Shown here piece by piece: positions 2,775 through 30,332 of a stretch of 30,451 nucleotides of DNA. The stretch is taken from positions 1 to 30,451 of IMG/VR virus record IMGVR_UViG_3300048136_000032; one strand, 5' to 3'. Made by a program: the position numbers and the translations under genes. The notes beneath the pieces are model-generated. The model was not told the origin of the DNA and made no database searches. It saw nothing but the letters and a program-made list of their open reading frames with translations. Position 1 is the first letter of the stretch, and each line of letters starts with the position of its first letter. This stretch comes from a virus.

Positions 2775-5096
2775 TCACTTAAATGCCTCCGGCAAAGGCT
2801 CGCCGGGTTCCCACCAGTAGCCTTGGTCATAATCTCTCATTCGATTACGCATAATGCGATTATACTTTCTCTGAGCGTCTGGGTCAGCCATTAGCTCTAG
2901 TTGATCAAACATTGCATTTTTGGCTGTTTGAATCTGCCAAATATCGGGCGTGTATCGCTCCGCAAAGTCTATAGTCTCGCTGAAGATATGGGTTTCTTCT
3001 CCGCGTATAGCCTCTTGAATATTGCCGATGCTAAGTCGTGCCGCCCTATTTACAAGATCACCAGCTGGCCCAAGCAGTGTAGACGCTGGGCCTGATCCAA
3101 ATCGGTTTTGATCTGAGAACAGGAAGTCTCCGAATATCCCAAGGCCGCCACCTTGTGCCATTGCCGCAATAACAAACTCAGATTTTAGTACTCCATCATT
3201 ATCTAGCATTGGCCTTGGCTCTCGACCCGCCGCAAGGTCTTTAGCTTGCAAGGTGATTCCGCCAAGTATTGTGGTAATTGCCATAAGTGCGCCAAAATAC
3301 TGCGCCTTCTTACCATTAGTATCTTGATAAAACCCTCTTACCCCATGCCCCATAAGGATCGTTATAGGGAATGACTTAAGTTGCATAACTGTGCGAATGC
3401 CCATGCCTGTTCCAGTGGCTCGTGACGTTCCCATAGTGGTTACGGCGCGAACCCTTGCGTCTGGCGTGGGTACGGCGAAATCGGTCTCAGATAAAACCAT
3501 CTGGTGAAACTTAACGCCACCCTCTTGCGTCATATCGGCATAAGGCGCACCACGCAACATCAATGGCGATTGCTTTCTGAACCCGTCCCAGTCTTGCTCG
3601 GTGATCCCGTATCTACCGAATGCGTCTTGCAATCCAGTTTCTAAGTCAGCAAATGACTTTTGAAAGTTATCAGCAAGCAGGGCAGAGAACTCCATGCCAA
3701 ATGCTTTGCGAGACGCATTGGTCCATGCCTCTAAGCCTGACGCCCGCATCACGCCCTCAGCCAACTTTGCGGCTTTGCCTGTGCCATACGTGTCAGCGTA
3801 TCTATTAGCCGCTGTCTGCCTTGCGGCGTTCTCAGCAGTTAGACCAAGGCGAGTGCCGAATATGCGATCGGCCTCATTGTCTGGCCTCATAAGAGACAGT
3901 TGTTGGCGTATTACTTTCAATGGCGCAATACCATTCATCTTTGCAGTCATTGCCACAAAGCCCGCATCACTAAGCGCAGAAATAAATGCGCCGCCCAAAG
4001 TAACTGACGTTAAAATATTTCGTGTGGCCTCTAGGCCATCTGCTAATCCGGTTAGTTCCCCAGCGTTTATTTGTCCAGCCGCAACCTTAAACACGGCATT
4101 GTTAAACGCCTCTTCTGGCCCGCTAATGTCTTCCTCTAGCTTCGCTTTGTTTAGCAAGAAATCAAACGTGCTACGGGGTGACGGGCCAAGAGTTTCCATG
4201 ACTGCAATGTCATTAGACATCATGTTGATATAGTCAGTTAGCGCATCAAAAACATTACCGCGACCAAATCTGTTCTGATACTTCATCCATGAGTTAGCAT
4301 CTTTGAAATATAGGAATCGCTTTTCGCCGCCCTTACGTGATAGCTTTTTGCCTAGCCGTGGAACACTTAGCCCCTTGGCTTTGTTTAGACCGCCAGTGCT
4401 AATGGTTTCGTATACAGCATCAAGCGCGACCTCAAACTGCTCATCACTTAATGGACGACCGGCCTCATCAACCATGAACTCACGATCAAGCAAATCCCTA
4501 ATCGTTTCCTTCCATGTCTCGACGCCAGCCTTTTTGATTGACGCTTGATCATGTCGCTGTGGCATCAACCACCGCTCATTCTTAGAGATAGATCCGCCAC
4601 GCGCATTAAATAAAACGCGCATCTGCTCGGCAGTCTCATGCCATGCGTCAGCCATTGCTTTTATTTTTGGATCGTCTACCTCTTCTCGATAGATAGCCTT
4701 CAGAAACTTTGTTAGCTCTTCTTCATCCTGCTCAATGCCGAACATACGAGATCGGAACTTAGCCAAAGCCTCAGCATTCATGCCGTGGAACTTGCCTTCG
4801 TAATACTTCGCTAAAAATTCGACGTTCTTATATTTGGCATTTCCGCGAGGGTCTTTGGTCATCAGGGCTGTAATACCAGCAGACATTCCTTGCGGGTGCG
4901 ATTTAACAGCGTCGTATGCCTGAGATATGCGTACTGCTTGTATAGCCGTCTCGCGCTTCTGGCGCGTTAGATTGCCAAGCACATCGTCAATAGCCTGATT
5001 GGGGTCATCAGAATCAAGGATTGCTTGCGCCACGTCCTTAGACAGACGATTCTGTGCAAGCGCCTCGTTGACACATCTTTCAAATCCGTTAGCCAA
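2775..5096 (-). CDS. Large internal virion (ejection) protein, C-terminal member of the set
   Basis: This 773-residue, mostly helical and charged protein follows two other long internal proteins. A hydrophobic patch near residues 360-395 (ILTSVTLGGAFISALSDAGF) and another near 600-625 (FGALMAITTILGGITL) could insert in membrane. The C-terminus is tryptophan- and proline-rich. In podoviruses such proteins are stored in the capsid and form a channel across the cell envelope. Position and size relative to the tail tube genes support this. I do not recognise an enzymatic motif. The start overlaps the end of the upstream gene by 8 bases, implying coupled translation. Confidence 0.7.
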   Translation of the reverse strand: MANGFERCVNEALAQNRLSKDVAQAILDSDDPNQAIDDVLGNLTRQKRETAIQAVRISQAYDAVKSHPQGMSAGITALMTKDPRGNAKYKNVEFLAKYYEGKFHGMNAEALAKFRSRMFGIEQDEEELTKFLKAIYREEVDDPKIKAMADAWHETAEQMRVLFNARGGSISKNERWLMPQRHDQASIKKAGVETWKETIRDLLDREFMVDEAGRPLSDEQFEVALDAVYETISTGGLNKAKGLSVPRLGKKLSRKGGEKRFLYFKDANSWMKYQNRFGRGNVFDALTDYINMMSNDIAVMETLGPSPRSTFDFLLNKAKLEEDISGPEEAFNNAVFKVAAGQINAGELTGLADGLEATRNILTSVTLGGAFISALSDAGFVAMTAKMNGIAPLKVIRQQLSLMRPDNEADRIFGTRLGLTAENAARQTAANRYADTYGTGKAAKLAEGVMRASGLEAWTNASRKAFGMEFSALLADNFQKSFADLETGLQDAFGRYGITEQDWDGFRKQSPLMLRGAPYADMTQEGGVKFHQMVLSETDFAVPTPDARVRAVTTMGTSRATGTGMGIRTVMQLKSFPITILMGHGVRGFYQDTNGKKAQYFGALMAITTILGGITLQAKDLAAGREPRPMLDNDGVLKSEFVIAAMAQGGGLGIFGDFLFSDQNRFGSGPASTLLGPAGDLVNRAARLSIGNIQEAIRGEETHIFSETIDFAERYTPDIWQIQTAKNAMFDQLELMADPDAQRKYNRIMRNRMRDYDQGYWWEPGEPLPEAFK

Positions 5097-7515
5097 GAGC
5101 GCACCTCAATACGTCTTCAATGTTCTTAATCTCGTCGTCAAGCGGCTTCATCTCAGCCTCAGCAACTTCGAGTATCTCTTGCATGATAGGGTCATCAGTA
5201 ATCCGCGCCCTTATAGGCGGTTGAGTAATAACACCTTCTGCCGATGTCCAATCAGGCATTAAGCCCATTTTTTGATCTGCGAATACAGTCTCTAAAACGC
5301 CAGCCGTTCTGTTGGTTTCTCCATACGGACCATAGTTCAGCCAACTGTTCTGACCTCTTGTTTCTGTGGTCAGTGCGCGTCTAGCTGGGCCAGTAAATAA
5401 CTGCATATGCGCTTGGAATGCGTTTTCTTCGCCACGCGCCCTAAATCCAGCGCCTTCTAGCGAGTGACCAAAGGCATCATGCACAGCTCGGAATAGATCG
5501 TTATTAGTAACAACCTGCTCCTTACCGTTTTGATCTTTCCATCTCAGTCCGCTGTCTTGGAGTAAAATTCTGTTTGGATCGCCTAGACTTTCTTTAAATT
5601 CATCGAGCGTACCAAAGCCGTCATACGTGCCATAAACAGCCATGCGCTTATTCTTTCGCAGATCACGCAGAGCGTTATAGGGGTTGCCGTCATACGGATC
5701 GGTCTTTGAGTCAAAGAATGTAAACTCATAACCATCTTCAATAAGTGCGTCGTATTGAGCGCGTGTTTGATTGGCTAGGTCTCGATAGGCTTCTTGAACT
5801 GCGGGATCAGAAGGGTTGTCCTCCATATCCTCAAAGGCTTGCGCTATACGCCGCGCTCGGTCCTCATCAACCTCTACGTATTCTGCTTGTCGGGAGAAAG
5901 GGAGTCCATTGGCTCTTGCGTACTTCTCTGCGGCATCGGTGATTCTAAGGTCTGGGCCTGTTGCGTCTCTGACGCTGGGCGCACCTTCGAGCGGTTGCTC
6001 GCGTGGAATTTGATCCGCTGTCGGCGCAGTGACTCGCTCCTGATCGCGTCGTCTTCTGTCTCCGGGGCGTTCGGGTCGTACTTCATCGGCTGTCCTTAGA
6101 TTGTTAAACGCCTCAATGTCAGCGTCGAAATCTTCTGCAATGCCATTCCTGACAAGTATATCACGCTGTCGCTCTGTAGTCGTTTGTGGTGCGGCCTTCT
6201 GCGGCTGTGGCTCTTCATACTTAGCCGGGATCTTTGAAGGCTGGTCATACATCTCGCTTCGGGTTTCTCTCTCCGAAAGGAACTGTATGTCTTGGTTGAT
6301 TTCTTGCTCGATCAAAATTTCATTGAGACGGCGTTCATACAGGGGCGGGATGACTCCCTGCTTGATTCGGTCTAAGTCGCCAAATGCCTCTCTCGCCACA
6401 TCATCTTGGCGCAACATCTCTTGAATACGGGTAACACGGTCTGATAGTCCCGCTCTTTGCTCTAGCGCAAGCTCTTCACCGCGTTCGATTGCCCGTTTCT
6501 TTGCTACTCGGGCCGGTACTCCGCGCTCCTTGATAACCTCTTCTGGAACGTCTGAGATCCTTTCTAGCCTAAACTCAAGGTCTTTTAACTCAGATTTAAG
6601 CGCTTTACGCTCGCCAGCCTCCAATCGGTTGCCAGCAGTAGCAGTTAGTTCCTCGGTAACTTCCCGTAAAAACTCAGCCTGAATAACATCTCTGTCGATA
6701 GGCGGAATGTCGCCACGCGATCTAGCGATCTCTAAGTCTTCAATGAGTCGTTCATTGGCCTCTCGAACCATTGCCTCGGGTGTATCAGGCTGTACAGCGC
6801 CAAGCTCATCGGCCTTGCTGTTGACCGCTCGGAGGTATCCAGCCAAGCCACCCGCTATACCCCCTAGCACAGCGCCTCCTACTGCCGCTGTAGCGATGTT
6901 CGCAAGCGCCTCTTGTGCTGAGTAGGGTGATTCAATATCGAGCTTGTGAGTGTATACAAGCGGCTGTATGGCTAGCTCTGTAGCCGCCGCGATACCAGCT
7001 TCAGCCTTAGCAACGCGCATTGCATTGGCGGTAATGCCCAAACCTCGGGCGGTGGTTAAGGATGCGCCAAGGCCCATTGTTGCAATGCTAATCGGATCGA
7101 GCATAAACGCAGTCATAGAGCCTGTGAACTGAGCCATGCCGCTACCACGAGCGATAACGTCTTCTGCGTACTCTCTGCGCTTTCTTAGCTTCTCGTTACG
7201 TCGGGTGCGCAACTCTTCATCGGTTGCAAGCAAGCCAGTGTCTTTTGCTATACGGTCGTAATCTATCCGGCCTCGACGGTCGGTATATGGGTCTCTGTCA
7301 AAGCCGTCATCGACCATGCCGCGTAATGCGGCTTGACGCTCCCGGTACATCTCGTTATTTAAGGCACTAGAGATTGACAATTCTTCATCAATCACAAGGC
7401 CAAGAGACGCACCAAAGACCTCGCCAAATGATGATTCAATAACTAAGTCGTCTGGAGTAAACAGTCTGTATGACTGATCAAATGTCCGCTTATCTCTGTC
7501 AGAAACAAAAGGCAT
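5089..7515 (-). CDS. Large internal virion (ejection) protein with an HDxFGH-containing domain
   Basis: This is an 808-residue protein. Residues 1-125 are charged. Residues 128-160 and 205-230 are glycine- and alanine-rich hydrophobic segments suited to membrane insertion. Residues about 250-560 are highly charged and probably coiled coil or disordered. Residues about 590-760 form a compact, well-conserved-looking domain with H679-D-x-F-G-H684, E696/E697 and H703, followed by ALTTETRGQNSW and NYGPYGE. I recall this signature from other phage ejection and polyvalent proteins but cannot name it. The histidine/glutamate spacing suggests a metal site (inference). It lies 2 bases after the preceding internal protein gene and overlaps the next one. 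Confidence 0.75.
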   Translation of the reverse strand: MPFVSDRDKRTFDQSYRLFTPDDLVIESSFGEVFGASLGLVIDEELSISSALNNEMYRERQAALRGMVDDGFDRDPYTDRRGRIDYDRIAKDTGLLATDEELRTRRNEKLRKRREYAEDVIARGSGMAQFTGSMTAFMLDPISIATMGLGASLTTARGLGITANAMRVAKAEAGIAAATELAIQPLVYTHKLDIESPYSAQEALANIATAAVGGAVLGGIAGGLAGYLRAVNSKADELGAVQPDTPEAMVREANERLIEDLEIARSRGDIPPIDRDVIQAEFLREVTEELTATAGNRLEAGERKALKSELKDLEFRLERISDVPEEVIKERGVPARVAKKRAIERGEELALEQRAGLSDRVTRIQEMLRQDDVAREAFGDLDRIKQGVIPPLYERRLNEILIEQEINQDIQFLSERETRSEMYDQPSKIPAKYEEPQPQKAAPQTTTERQRDILVRNGIAEDFDADIEAFNNLRTADEVRPERPGDRRRRDQERVTAPTADQIPREQPLEGAPSVRDATGPDLRITDAAEKYARANGLPFSRQAEYVEVDEDRARRIAQAFEDMEDNPSDPAVQEAYRDLANQTRAQYDALIEDGYEFTFFDSKTDPYDGNPYNALRDLRKNKRMAVYGTYDGFGTLDEFKESLGDPNRILLQDSGLRWKDQNGKEQVVTNNDLFRAVHDAFGHSLEGAGFRARGEENAFQAHMQLFTGPARRALTTETRGQNSWLNYGPYGETNRTAGVLETVFADQKMGLMPDWTSAEGVITQPPIRARITDDPIMQEILEVAEAEMKPLDDEIKNIEDVLRCALG

Positions 7516-7517
7516 TG

Positions 7518-9554
7518 TTATCGACCAGTGTTACGCCGCGACCTTCGCGGTATCATTTCGGTTACAACGGACTCATCGTACTTGAAGGTAAACGCATTCC
7601 CGTTTTTGTTGACCATTAAAACACCATCGCCAGTAACCAAGTTATATTCGCTCTTGTTGTTTGGAACGCTAACAACGCGGGCATTTTTAACCTGCTTGAT
7701 TGCTTGATTAACCGTCATCATTCCGATGCCGCCATACGCCTCAAGCCAATCCTCGTTGACTCTATCAAGCATTTTCTCGAACTGACTCTCTGTTACGTCT
7801 CTTGGTAGCTGGTACTTGCCTTTGTTGAACGTACCAATACCGCCAGTGATAGAAGCCAAAGAGTCTTCAAATGCACCTTTATCAAATACGCTTGGATCTG
7901 GGTTGCTTTTGGCATAGTGATTAAGAGCGGCTTGAATTACTAAACCGCGATTCTCTGATTGATAAACTTCACCGGCTGGCCCTAAATAATCGTCCGCTAC
8001 GCCTATGTAGTTCTGAAATGAAGGCAACTTGGCTTGGCCTTGCGCCACCATCTCTTGACCTTTGAGTGCAGTCTTTTGCACTGTCATGTCATTGGTTGCG
8101 CCAATCATTGCAAACAGTGGATCGCCAACCTTGCTGATCGTATTCCATACCGCTGGATCTTCATTAAGGCTTTGAGCCATGCTTATTTTTTCAGCGACTG
8201 TCATCTCTTCAAGACTATCGCTAAACGCATCAGCTTCCGCGTCAGTCATTGCCGGTATATCGCGACCGTAGTGGATGGATGCTTTCTTGGCCTCAGCCAC
8301 TCTGTCAATCCATGACTGAGGGTTGCTCATATCAAGCGCCGCGTCAGATACGATGCCTTGTTTAATAGCAAATCCCATTGGATCTTTATTAAGCTGAGTG
8401 TTAATCCCGCTCTGTGTCTTAATCAGGATTTCCGCTCTTTCAACTTCATCAAGACCAACAGCCTCAACCTGAGTTAGTACGGCAGATCGCTGTGAGGCAG
8501 ACATCAAGGCGAAGGTTCCGGCTTCTTCTACTAACTGAAACTCATCTTCGTATTCAGTGCCAGCAACAGCAGTGGCAAGCTCTTTCATCTCGCCGGGGTC
8601 TACTTGTATACCAAGTGAAACTGCGGTTGCCGCTTGGCCTACCTGCTCTTTGAGCGCGTCATCTGCGGCCTTAGTCGATGCTTCAAAAACAGATTTTTGA
8701 CGAGAAACAGTTTGCGCTGTAGCGGCCTTCCAAGCGTCCCATTCGGACGGCTCAAATTGATCTGGCCTTGGAGCATTAGCAATCAAGCCATAGGCGGTGG
8801 CAAAGTCATTATCAGACATAGCGAGCCGAACTTCTCGCATGATTCCGCCACTAGCAAGTGCCTTGTCTGCGCTTTTAGTTACGCCATCGGTATATCCCGG
8901 CTTTACATCTCCAGCATCTTCAAGCGCCCTAGCCGATGCCACGACTTCATTTCTTAACTGTAGTGCAAACCCAACATCTTCTTCTTCAGATTGCGTCGCT
9001 ATTTCGGATAGCTTGTTGTCGATGTTGTTGGTGGTGGTATCAACAGCAACAGCCCTTGCTCGCTTGCGGCCTAGCTCTGCAACTCTTACGCCATTACGCT
9101 CAAACGCCTCATCGTAGACAGAGCGGAGCATTGGCTGGAATCGCTCATCGACGTTTTGCGATAAGCCTTGAAAGTATTTGTTGGCATTCTCAGAAAACTG
9201 ATTAAAGTCACCATCTGACTCTACATTCATGCGATCAACAGCCGATCGTATGTCGGAGGTAACTTCGTTGATATATGCGTTTTCTACGGTCTGGTTGAAT
9301 GACTGATCATATATGCTGATAGCACTCAACAAGCCTTCTTTGATCTCAGGTGATCGGCCTTCTTCTGCCGCCGCCAGTGCTTCCGCCGATGCGTCTTCAA
9401 TGGCTTTTCTTTTCTGTATGCGACCGCCAACCTCAAACGCAATGTCACCGACCTGTTCAGCCAAGCCAGAGAGAGCCTGCAAGCGTTTAGCCTGAGACGT
9501 ATCTACACCTGTTGGTGTAAACCTGCCGTAGTAATCAATGCGCTTCTGAGCCAT
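7518..9554 (-). CDS. Internal virion protein, gp15-like position
   Basis: This 678-residue protein is dominated by predicted helices rich in Ala, Glu, Asp and Gln, with no signal peptide and no clear membrane segment. The N-terminus (QKRIDYYGRF) and the following helical region fit the long soluble ejection proteins of podoviruses. It sits between the small hydrophobic internal protein and the two very long internal proteins, which is where the T7 gp15 equivalent lies. I see no lytic transglycosylase Glu-Ser motif in it. Function is inferred from size, composition and gene order. Confidence 0.7.
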   Translation of the reverse strand: MAQKRIDYYGRFTPTGVDTSQAKRLQALSGLAEQVGDIAFEVGGRIQKRKAIEDASAEALAAAEEGRSPEIKEGLLSAISIYDQSFNQTVENAYINEVTSDIRSAVDRMNVESDGDFNQFSENANKYFQGLSQNVDERFQPMLRSVYDEAFERNGVRVAELGRKRARAVAVDTTTNNIDNKLSEIATQSEEEDVGFALQLRNEVVASARALEDAGDVKPGYTDGVTKSADKALASGGIMREVRLAMSDNDFATAYGLIANAPRPDQFEPSEWDAWKAATAQTVSRQKSVFEASTKAADDALKEQVGQAATAVSLGIQVDPGEMKELATAVAGTEYEDEFQLVEEAGTFALMSASQRSAVLTQVEAVGLDEVERAEILIKTQSGINTQLNKDPMGFAIKQGIVSDAALDMSNPQSWIDRVAEAKKASIHYGRDIPAMTDAEADAFSDSLEEMTVAEKISMAQSLNEDPAVWNTISKVGDPLFAMIGATNDMTVQKTALKGQEMVAQGQAKLPSFQNYIGVADDYLGPAGEVYQSENRGLVIQAALNHYAKSNPDPSVFDKGAFEDSLASITGGIGTFNKGKYQLPRDVTESQFEKMLDRVNEDWLEAYGGIGMMTVNQAIKQVKNARVVSVPNNKSEYNLVTGDGVLMVNKNGNAFTFKYDESVVTEMIPRRSRRNTGR

Positions 9555-28273: not shown

Positions 28274-28662
28274 AGCCAAACTCTCATAGGTTGCTCAGGT
28301 GTTACACCGTGTGACTCATCCAGTGCCTCTACAGTCTCACGCTGTGCGTCACCTACCAAGCGGATGTTTACATGCCAGCCTGCCATCGCTTGCATCTCAG
28401 GGTACTCGTTGCCTTCCTCGTCAGTCAGCATAGTGCCTGTTGGCTCGTGCAGTGTGCCTACCACGTCTATAGCGTAGTCGTGTGAATGAGTGACAAGGTA
28501 CGCGTCACCGTCTGCTACCTGAGTTTCTACACCCTCGTCGTCTATCTGAGTCACGTAGTCCTGTCGGTAGAACGCTGAGAGTACAGTCGGCATATCTGAC
28601 TCAGCCGATAGTCGTAGGTAGAAGTCACGCTTTGGTGCTTCAATGATTACTTCTTCTGTCAT
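28270..28662 (-). CDS. Hypothetical tail-associated protein (130 aa)
   Basis: This 130-residue protein contains HSHDYAIDVVGTLHEPTGTM (near 60-79) and WHVNIRLVGDAQRETVEAL (near 97-115), a pattern of short acidic phage proteins found just after tail or adhesin genes. It may be an assembly chaperone or a minor tail component (inference). It is linked to the tail gene above by ATGA. Confidence 0.6.
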   Translation of the reverse strand: MTEEVIIEAPKRDFYLRLSAESDMPTVLSAFYRQDYVTQIDDEGVETQVADGDAYLVTHSHDYAIDVVGTLHEPTGTMLTDEEGNEYPEMQAMAGWHVNIRLVGDAQRETVEALDESHGVTPEQPMRVWL

Positions 28663-30332
28663 GATGTTAGATCCTGTAGTTGTGCGTCACTAAGTCTTCG
28701 CGGGTAGTACTTGATGGACTTGATGTGGCCGTTGGCGTATCTCGAAGTGTGGTCAACGCCTATTTTTAGCGTTTGAATTGCTGTTGGTAATGCACTGGAA
28801 GTGTCCTCAGTGCCTAAAGATCCGTTAGCGGATGAGTTTGTACTGGTTGGGCTAAATGCAAGAGCTGTAATGGCGACTTCACCAGCATCAAAAATATTCG
28901 CGTTATGACCATCGGTATAGTATTTTGCAGTATCTACACCGCCCGTTCTTATAGATTGCCATCCATCGTTAACTAAAACACCTAAATCGATTCTATTATT
29001 AGTGTCTTCTACAAGCTGAACGAAGGCGTTGTATTGCGATGTTTGAGGGCTGATTATTGAAGACGTAACTACAACAGTCCCAGCACTCTGGTTATACCCA
29101 AAGTCAGCCACGGGGATAGACGCTACATCGGCAGAGCGTGTTGTCGTACTACCAGAATTACTCTTGATGTAACTTGTGGGGAACGAGCCTTCCTCGACTT
29201 GAGCGCCCCAAATGTAGATACCGCTAGTGCCGTCTCCAGCAAAAGAAACACAATCAAAGCTGTTTATTGAAGTTCCGTCGCTAATTCCAACAGTAAAATT
29301 TACCGACCCGCCATCAGATGACGTAATTACGGAAAGTCTCCACCAGCCATTACCAGCGTCTTGTACACGGTAGTCAGAAGTTGTCGGTGTACCTCTGGTG
29401 GAAGTATCAAAAACACTGCCGTCATCTAAATCAATAAATACAGAATATCCCGTACTTGGACTCGAATCTAAAAGCCTAATGCCGCCGTATTTATATTCTG
29501 CTTTTTTTAAGTAAACAGAACCTACTACATTCGTTGCTCCAGAAACAGTAGCGTCTTCTTGAATAATTTGTGTTCCTGTCCCTGAGGTAGCGAAAAGTTT
29601 CCAAACGCTATCTGACATGCTTGGAGACTCTGTTAAGCCTGAAGTGAGAGACGTGTCGCCTTTTTGTCCGTTAGCCCAACGACCTGATTGAACAGTAAAG
29701 TCCTCAGAGTAAGTCAGCAGATTAGTCCTAGCTTCCTCCACCAGCAAACCCAGCCTGTTACCGTCTGCATCGTACTCTACACGGGGGACATTCTCTGGAT
29801 GCTCGAACAGCGTTAGGGTACCGTCTGATTCGTCGAAGATGACTTCTTTGACGCTGATGTTGTCTGCTTTTCCTGTCACGCCGTTTGCTGTCGCCGTACC
29901 TATTGTTAGGTAGGTTGTTGAGGATGTTGCGACAAACTGAAAGCGAAGCGCAGTCCCTATGCCAAAATCATTTAGGTTGTTATAAGAGGATGAGCCTGAC
30001 GTTCCTGTGCCAGCTCTTACATATAACGCCGCACTAGAAACATCTAACGTAATAACGTAAATGCCACCAACATTTGTTGAGAGCGCCTGATATACCTTTG
30101 CATTATTGCTTCCGTCTACCCTTGGAATTGAAAGCTCCTCTAAAGAAACAGAAGCCGAAGAAGAGCCTATGCTTGCATCTGTCCAGCCAGTAAGATCACC
30201 GCTAGAAAAATCCCCATTAGTAACAAGCTCAGTCCCATAGCTAACAGGGCGCAATGCAGTCGCACGTCCGCCACCACTAGCCCTAACAAATGAGATTAAA
30301 TCTTCGTAGTTACTGTTAACTTTCGTACCCAT
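28659..30332 (-). CDS. Second modular tail/adhesin protein
   Basis: This is a 557-residue protein. The N-terminus (YEDLISFVRASGGGRAT) is a common phage appendage opening. Then comes a jelly-roll-like domain starting at ELVTNGDFSSGDLTGW (residues about 35-165) and the LVEEARTNLLTYSEDF module (about 197-395). Last is a beta-sandwich resembling LamG (about 415-557), ending in IKSIKYYPRRLSDAQLQ. The middle module is shared with the large tail protein at the left edge. It is a probable receptor-binding or decoration protein. Confidence 0.8.
   Translation of the reverse strand: MGTKVNSNYEDLISFVRASGGGRATALRPVSYGTELVTNGDFSSGDLTGWTDASIGSSSASVSLEELSIPRVDGSNNAKVYQALSTNVGGIYVITLDVSSAALYVRAGTGTSGSSSYNNLNDFGIGTALRFQFVATSSTTYLTIGTATANGVTGKADNISVKEVIFDESDGTLTLFEHPENVPRVEYDADGNRLGLLVEEARTNLLTYSEDFTVQSGRWANGQKGDTSLTSGLTESPSMSDSVWKLFATSGTGTQIIQEDATVSGATNVVGSVYLKKAEYKYGGIRLLDSSPSTGYSVFIDLDDGSVFDTSTRGTPTTSDYRVQDAGNGWWRLSVITSSDGGSVNFTVGISDGTSINSFDCVSFAGDGTSGIYIWGAQVEEGSFPTSYIKSNSGSTTTRSADVASIPVADFGYNQSAGTVVVTSSIISPQTSQYNAFVQLVEDTNNRIDLGVLVNDGWQSIRTGGVDTAKYYTDGHNANIFDAGEVAITALAFSPTSTNSSANGSLGTEDTSSALPTAIQTLKIGVDHTSRYANGHIKSIKYYPRRLSDAQLQDLTS

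Follow-up and report, generated by a model that had tools for sequence, protein, structure and literature searches.

What does the C-terminal part of a putative ejection protein do once it has reached the host? The question is raised by an ORF of 808 amino acids (5089-7515, minus strand) in the window, the whole stretch of 30,451 nucleotides of viral DNA that was analysed. The genes run from portal and major head through two tail genes and an internal virion protein to a 678-aa ORF and then the 808-aa ORF. In a PHROG profile search residues 29-380 of the 808-aa product matched phrog_342 ("internal virion protein with endolysin domain") with an E value of 5.9e-7. The ORF thus lies after the tail tubular genes and shows a match to an internal virion protein family, and on this synteny and homology it was considered a candidate internal virion (ejection) protein of the T7 type. 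The 678-aa ORF (7518-9554, minus strand), which is located directly upstream among the internal virion proteins, had no PHROG match at E values up to 1. A tail protein gene (phrog_5939; 28659-30332, minus strand) is found at the far end of the window, past the exonuclease gene and away from the other structural genes.

A preliminary description had drawn a compact, unnamed domain at 5230-5750 (residues 589-762) inside this ejection protein. Alignment and modelling confirmed a distinct domain there, but it starts about 70 residues before the drawn start. Because conserved positions (A558, Y577, Q587) begin some 60 residues ahead of that start and confidence in the model is high from roughly residue 526 onward, the domain is placed at residues ~516-757 (5245-5970, minus strand), based upon three family alignments, the AlphaFold2 model and phrog_3170. 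The protein is a candidate of the ejection type by synteny and PHROG match, as had been proposed, but the domain is C-terminal rather than internal. The His and Glu residues, the HDxFGH motif and the TTETRGQNSWLNYGP stretch after it were all located where they had been reported. HDAFGH (H679-D680-x3-H684; residues 679-684, 5464-5481) lies in a predicted helix (model positions 156-170). E696, within GEENAF, is on the next helix, 12 residues past H684 (5428-5430), and H703 is on the same helix seven residues further (5407-5409). E718 and Q722 are contained in TTETRGQNSWLNYGP (residues 716-730, 5326-5370), and Q748-K749 (5269-5274) are found near the C-terminal edge of the domain; all of these features are on the minus strand.

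Conservation was counted in 178 aligned rows from 176 loci, which include close relatives and repeat fetches (L002/L098, L003/L099, L004/L100, L005/L101 and L007/L118, among others). H679, D680 and H684 are unchanged in 176/176 covering rows, E696, H703 and Q722 in 175/175 and K749 in 174/174, while Q748 is kept in 95/98 rows of one alignment; the rows without coverage are pieces of L031 and L032, loci with a split reading frame. Residue 718 is Glu in 172 of 175 covering rows. The remaining three, from the IMG/VR loci L119, L120 and L121, have Gln at this position and keep every other conserved residue. Since 174 of the 178 rows carry the search pattern NDxFR[AI]VHD, the invariance of its N, F and R and of H679 and D680 is partly ascertained. 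H684, H703, E718, Q722 and K749 are outside both search patterns, and E696 is kept in 62/62 covering rows which were retrieved without the GE pattern. The two His and one Glu of the preliminary description are therefore conserved, but they belong to a larger polar set (H679, D680, H684, E696, H703, E718, Q722, K749). Variable His and Glu in relatives had been named as grounds for giving up the domain claim, an objection which fails because invariance is near-complete over the 178 rows. The pattern is typical of an active site, here a putative one.

The designation of the domain as unnamed holds: a profile search with the isolated domain returned no Pfam match at E values up to 10, and no NCBIfam model matched the domain. 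In six bacterial or MAG copies, solo or two-domain, the Pfam and NCBIfam matches within the domain region were at chance level, and the match of L040 to DUF7178 falls outside that region. Sixty-one residues around HDxFGH (671-731) matched phrog_3170, a family of unassigned function, with E values of 9.7e-15 for the whole protein and 4.6e-15 for the domain alone. PHROG_3170 proteins such as Bixzunavirus Pio gp110 and Gordonia phage Skog gp166 (E 4e-119) have the same domain, whereas here it is the C-terminal part of a candidate internal virion protein from a podovirus. No published name for the domain was found in the open-access literature, the PHROG numbers being sought within the accessible part of PMC12363180, and this literature yielded no paper on DUF7178 or DUF3293.

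AlphaFold2 modelling of residues 516-808 gave a mean pLDDT of 92.9 and a pTM of 0.84, and the domain is predicted to be alpha+beta with four short strands. A second model, of a solo copy from Micromonospora (L051), is likewise alpha+beta and had a pLDDT of 94.3. Comparison to solved structures produced nothing convincing, the best Foldseek match having an E value of 9e-3 with a TM of 0.16 and the best VIA match a Z of 2.8. With the model from the window, Foldseek gave no match at E 0.001 or better and the VIA matches were taken up by the C-terminal helix. PDB sequence searches with three family alignments gave nothing better than m4D2, a helical protein (E 0.16-0.35), and the first alignment only also gave two NPCBM/NEW2 chains at E 1.2-1.5. 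Kinship to helical heme-oxygenase-like diiron proteins or to HD-phosphohydrolases had been entertained because of their motifs and was dropped; these families were absent from the Pfam results and from the Foldseek matches listed. We conclude that this is a real, unnamed domain which is probably catalytic.

Relatives were detected by tblastn in 200 of 50,697 phage records, 187 of the 200 being Mycobacterium phages by name. Pattern and tblastn searches revealed at least 593 relatives among 599 IMG/VR stretches and 107 among 184 cellular genome contigs, and 80 were kept from each set. Cellular copies are rare, since the domain was found in 0/295 further genomes of the phylum sample for L038 and in 1/295 of that for L061. 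Four plasmid records were recovered for each of two bacterial queries. Solo copies of 188-305 aa occur in one phage, Streptomyces phage Dagobah (188 aa, terminal region), and in bacteria, where many are of 217-305 aa; from their existence it appears that the domain can work alone.

A search of BFVD with the L051 model gave close relatives followed by small solo phage proteins (ranks 21-31), for which the similarity between predicted structures had a probability of 0.82-1.00 and a TMt of 0.40-0.60. Pseudomonas phage LKA1 ORF7, Percy gp6 and AS12 gp05 were recognised among them by length and motif. LKA1 ORF7 belongs to PHROG_7806 and has relatives in 123 phage records. Eleven proteins of this type carry FR..HD..H (as HDLGH, HDCGH or HDATH; HDLDGH in Gordonia phage Yvonnetastic), a Glu some 12 residues later, [DE]T.xQ in most and a final Q, as in the domain. 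They differ from it in that most have HDxxH, one residue shorter, and in being products of a solo early gene. The Glu aligned with E696 is present in this family too, the position of E718 is mostly Asp, and an equivalent of Q722 was seen by eye in 9/11. The Yvonnetastic protein is the product of an unannotated ORF resembling LKA1 ORF7 (96845-97198; L224:939-1292), and the spacing of its HDLDGH is intermediate between the two families.

Comparison of the domain family with the LKA1 family by hhalign gave 94.4-94.7% (P 6-9e-8, score 55.9-57.5), which is above the decoys, the best of 82 scoring 24.6. Masking HDxFGH lowered the score to 28.3-29.8, and masking the whole NDxFRAVHDxFGH block lowered it to 16.7-17.0, which is noise. 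Because masking abolishes the score, the sequence evidence for kinship sits mainly in this block; the evidence from the predicted folds is separate from it. Judged by sequence and predicted fold, PHROG_7806, a T7-like phage early gene family, is a distant member of the same superfamily, which is a new assignment. The phi15 ORF2 gene (1329-1820) follows sigma70-like promoters and precedes the RNA polymerase gene (4009), and Pf-10 p01 is preceded by a sigma70-like promoter. From these positions an early role is likely for the solo family. The earlier suggestion that the domain is an early effector gains in plausibility through these distant early proteins, while delivery itself is predicted.

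Gene neighbourhoods were counted in the 80 cellular loci kept of the 107. Genes were called by a crude longest-ORF procedure, which picked some antisense ORFs in high-GC genomes, and the named neighbours were verified by Pfam or PADLOC in the loci given. The neighbourhoods are not phylogenetically independent, as 16 loci are from one family, several Microbacterium loci are near-identical and L049 and L050 are from one genome. An S-adenosylhomocysteine-hydrolase-like (SAHH-like) gene is located near the domain in 15/80 loci, the other 65 having none inside the fetched stretch. In L038 this gene overlaps the start of the domain gene by 4 bases, and AdoHcyase domains were confirmed by Pfam in all four SAHH-like genes tested. 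Eight genomes were examined; SAHH is beside the domain in 8/8 and a further strong SAHH is present elsewhere in 6/8, so the neighbouring gene looks like a second copy. Where any SAHH match passed the cut-off there were 1-3 per genome (4.5-8.6 Mb), and the chance of one falling in a 12-kb stretch would be well under 1%. DUF3293 was identified in 11/80 loci. In eight it is a separate ORF, every one in an SAHH locus, and in three, L043 and the duplicates L049 and L050, one ORF holds both it and the domain; Pfam confirmed it in L041, L046 and L043. Three-gene sets of a short SAHH-like gene, the domain and DUF3293 are seen in Bacteroidota and Proteobacteria (L038, L039, L041, L042, L044-L047 and L063; DUF3293 in 8/9).

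In 16/80 cellular loci the domain gene is adjoined by a divergent gene homologous to the type I methyltransferase of L068 (L068, L072, L073, L080-L082, L084-L086, L088, L091-L093, L095-L097). Among these a kinase is present in 13, a Cas3 homologue in 11, a UvrD homologue in nine and direct-repeat arrays in 11. L068 alone was scanned by PADLOC and Pfam, which identified MTase_I (5.8e-110), a PD-T4-6/mad6-like kinase, a GajB-like helicase and Cas3e; the domain protein of this locus matched no PADLOC model. Micromonosporaceae membership was verified for two of the genera, and we take the remaining named genera to belong there as well. The conserved cluster of this family consists of a type I methyltransferase homologue and the solo domain, often accompanied by a Ser/Thr kinase, a UvrD-like helicase, Cas3 and arrays like those of CRISPR I-E; it could represent a defence island that has so far gone unrecognised. 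Other actinobacterial loci that were inspected have adenosine deaminase, methyltransferase, Cys/Met-metabolism or PmbA/TldD genes nearby. The association of cellular copies with SAHH and DUF3293, and with methyltransferases in Micromonosporaceae, is new.

Three long proteins with the domain, two phage- or prophage-like and one from a MAG, also contain ART-PolyVal, LPD22, LPD38 or DUF3293, and the 808-aa protein has only the N-terminal internal virion match and the domain by Pfam and PHROG. In such relatives the domain shares giant proteins with ART-PolyVal, LPD22 or LPD38, like the polyvalent proteins of Iyer et al. 2017 (PMC5512222), which combine several disparate domains in one injected protein, but no Pfam LPD model matches the domain. 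DUF7178 shares an ORF with the domain in 12 loci and has an ORF of its own in three, Pio, Skog and Dagobah being included. The gp205 protein of Rhodococcus phage E3, annotated as "structural protein", carries both the domain and DUF7178. In L015, L016, L017 and L040, DUF7178, fused to or beside the domain, has a VDTHxxRV-like stretch. Skog gp165, which contains DUF7178, is annotated as "glycosylase"; this annotation and a motif raised the suspicion that DUF7178 may be a DNA glycosylase, but no useful match came from a PDB profile search with it, in which the best E value was 0.047, for a Csy3 chain.

Several other readings of the domain were weighed. It could be a zincin-like metallohydrolase in which HDxx(x)H replaces HExxH, E696 on the next helix is the third ligand and D680 the base, with processing of the polyvalent protein or cleavage of a host protein as its task; we regard this reading, together with that role, as rather unlikely. 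The order of elements in both models, beta-alpha-beta-beta-beta-alpha(HDxxxH)-alpha(E), resembles that of the N-terminal part of zincins, and IrrE (3dti) was the sole chain found by VIA with Z of at least 2 for the L051 model (Z 2.8, rmsd 3.9, 85 aligned). Other metallopeptidases occur among the weak matches, namely selecase (4qhi, TMt 0.38) and, at rank 2 in Foldseek, dipeptidyl-peptidase III (E 0.59). Polyvalent-protein peptidases with HEXXH and with HEXXXH are both described in the part of PMC5512222 that was available, and the present superfamily likewise has both HDxxxH and HDxxH. However, every structural match to metallopeptidases is weak, the catalytic Glu of zincins is replaced by Asp in 176/176 rows, so that neither HExxH nor HExxxH is present, and the metabolic gene neighbourhoods are not suggestive of a peptidase. 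Membership of the M49 and M78 families was considered and dropped when profile comparison gave no support (hhalign 1.6-2.8% against M49 and 0.07-0.08% against M78; 6.2% for the LKA1 family against M78).

Of the early ideas, homology to the aromatic amino acid hydroxylases (PF00351) had the most in its favour. HDxFGH is the hydroxylase motif of the aligned Biopterin_H proteins (FHDVFGH) and conforms to H-[DE]-x-x-G-H, the six best Foldseek matches of the L051 model were tryptophan and phenylalanine hydroxylases (E 9.2e-3 to 0.71; next 3.3), and hhalign against 21 hydroxylases gave 43.6-45.7%, compared with 0.3-0.4% for the reversed alignment. Yet masking the six HDxFGH columns reduced the last value to 0.1%, so the sequence match is that of HDxFGH alone, and the idea of homology was dropped. 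The Foldseek alignments superpose poorly (TM 0.16-0.17, rmsd ~18), the fold not being superposable as reported, and hydroxylases are absent from the best 50 Foldseek rows for the model from the window. VIA listed no hydroxylase with Z of at least 2 among 239 chains, where a missing family is not thereby excluded. The LKA1 family gave 1.7% against the hydroxylases by hhalign, PF00351 matched neither the domain of the 808-aa protein (E up to 10) nor nine domain-bearing relatives (E up to 1), and Gln at position 718 in three loci does not suit a triad of H679, H684 and E718. A non-heme iron oxygenase with this triad, related to or working like these hydroxylases, was kept as a functional analogy and is unlikely. 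It is very unlikely that the domain is a catalytically inert structural or DNA-ejection part of the virion; its place in an internal virion protein and the annotation of E3 gp205 would agree with this, but solo early-gene and chromosomal versions exist and the polar residues are invariant. The wall-modifying enzyme of the preliminary description is extremely unlikely. The endolysin in the name of phrog_342 speaks for it, but that match is confined to residues 29-380, nothing in the profile, fold and neighbourhood searches with the domain hints at peptidoglycan, and its solo copies adjoin SAM/SAH, DNA methyltransferase or phage early genes instead.

The reading that we prefer, at about an even chance, is a metal-dependent enzyme that acts inside the host early in infection, after delivery with the phage DNA. 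The C-terminal domain would be an enzyme of an unnamed superfamily in which a single metal ion is bound by two His (H679, H684) and a carboxylate, and the substrate is surrounded by D680, H703, Q722 and K749. E696 is preferred to E718 as the third ligand because it is invariant and aligned in the LKA1 family, while E718 varies (Gln, Asp). The internal virion protein would carry the domain into the host along with the phage DNA, and it would work in the cytoplasm as soon as infection begins, taking the part that an early gene plays in T7-like Pseudomonas phages (the LKA1 ORF7/phi15 ORF2 family). Based upon the bacterial neighbours (a second SAHH, DUF3293 and DNA methyltransferases), the favoured chemistry is one connected with the SAM/SAH cycle or with defence by methylation, a link which is possible and put forward tentatively. 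Counter-defence and host-takeover activities have previously been found among the early proteins of T7-like phages and among ejected proteins, and the domain is a promising candidate for a host-takeover enzyme that has yet to be characterised.

The phage SAM lyase, or T3 SAMase (PMC8406200, PMC7877911), is an early phage protein which acts on SAM metabolism against restriction; the likeness is in the way of working only, and no kinship is claimed. Two phage families without assigned function, giant proteins predicted to be injected and solo bacterial genes are here joined in one superfamily, which comes with a defined set of residues for mutation, and the two independent lines of context, SAH metabolism and DNA methyltransferase islands, make the substrate testable. 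It may be, though we consider it doubtful, that this one superfamily stands on both sides of a conflict over methylation, delivered by phages or expressed early on one side, and on the other encoded by bacteria next to either a dedicated SAHH with DUF3293 or a type I methyltransferase with kinase and CRISPR I-E genes. Its reaction, a metal-dependent step of a new kind on SAM/SAH or on a methylated product, would then, if true, represent an anti-restriction strategy other than SAM lyase.
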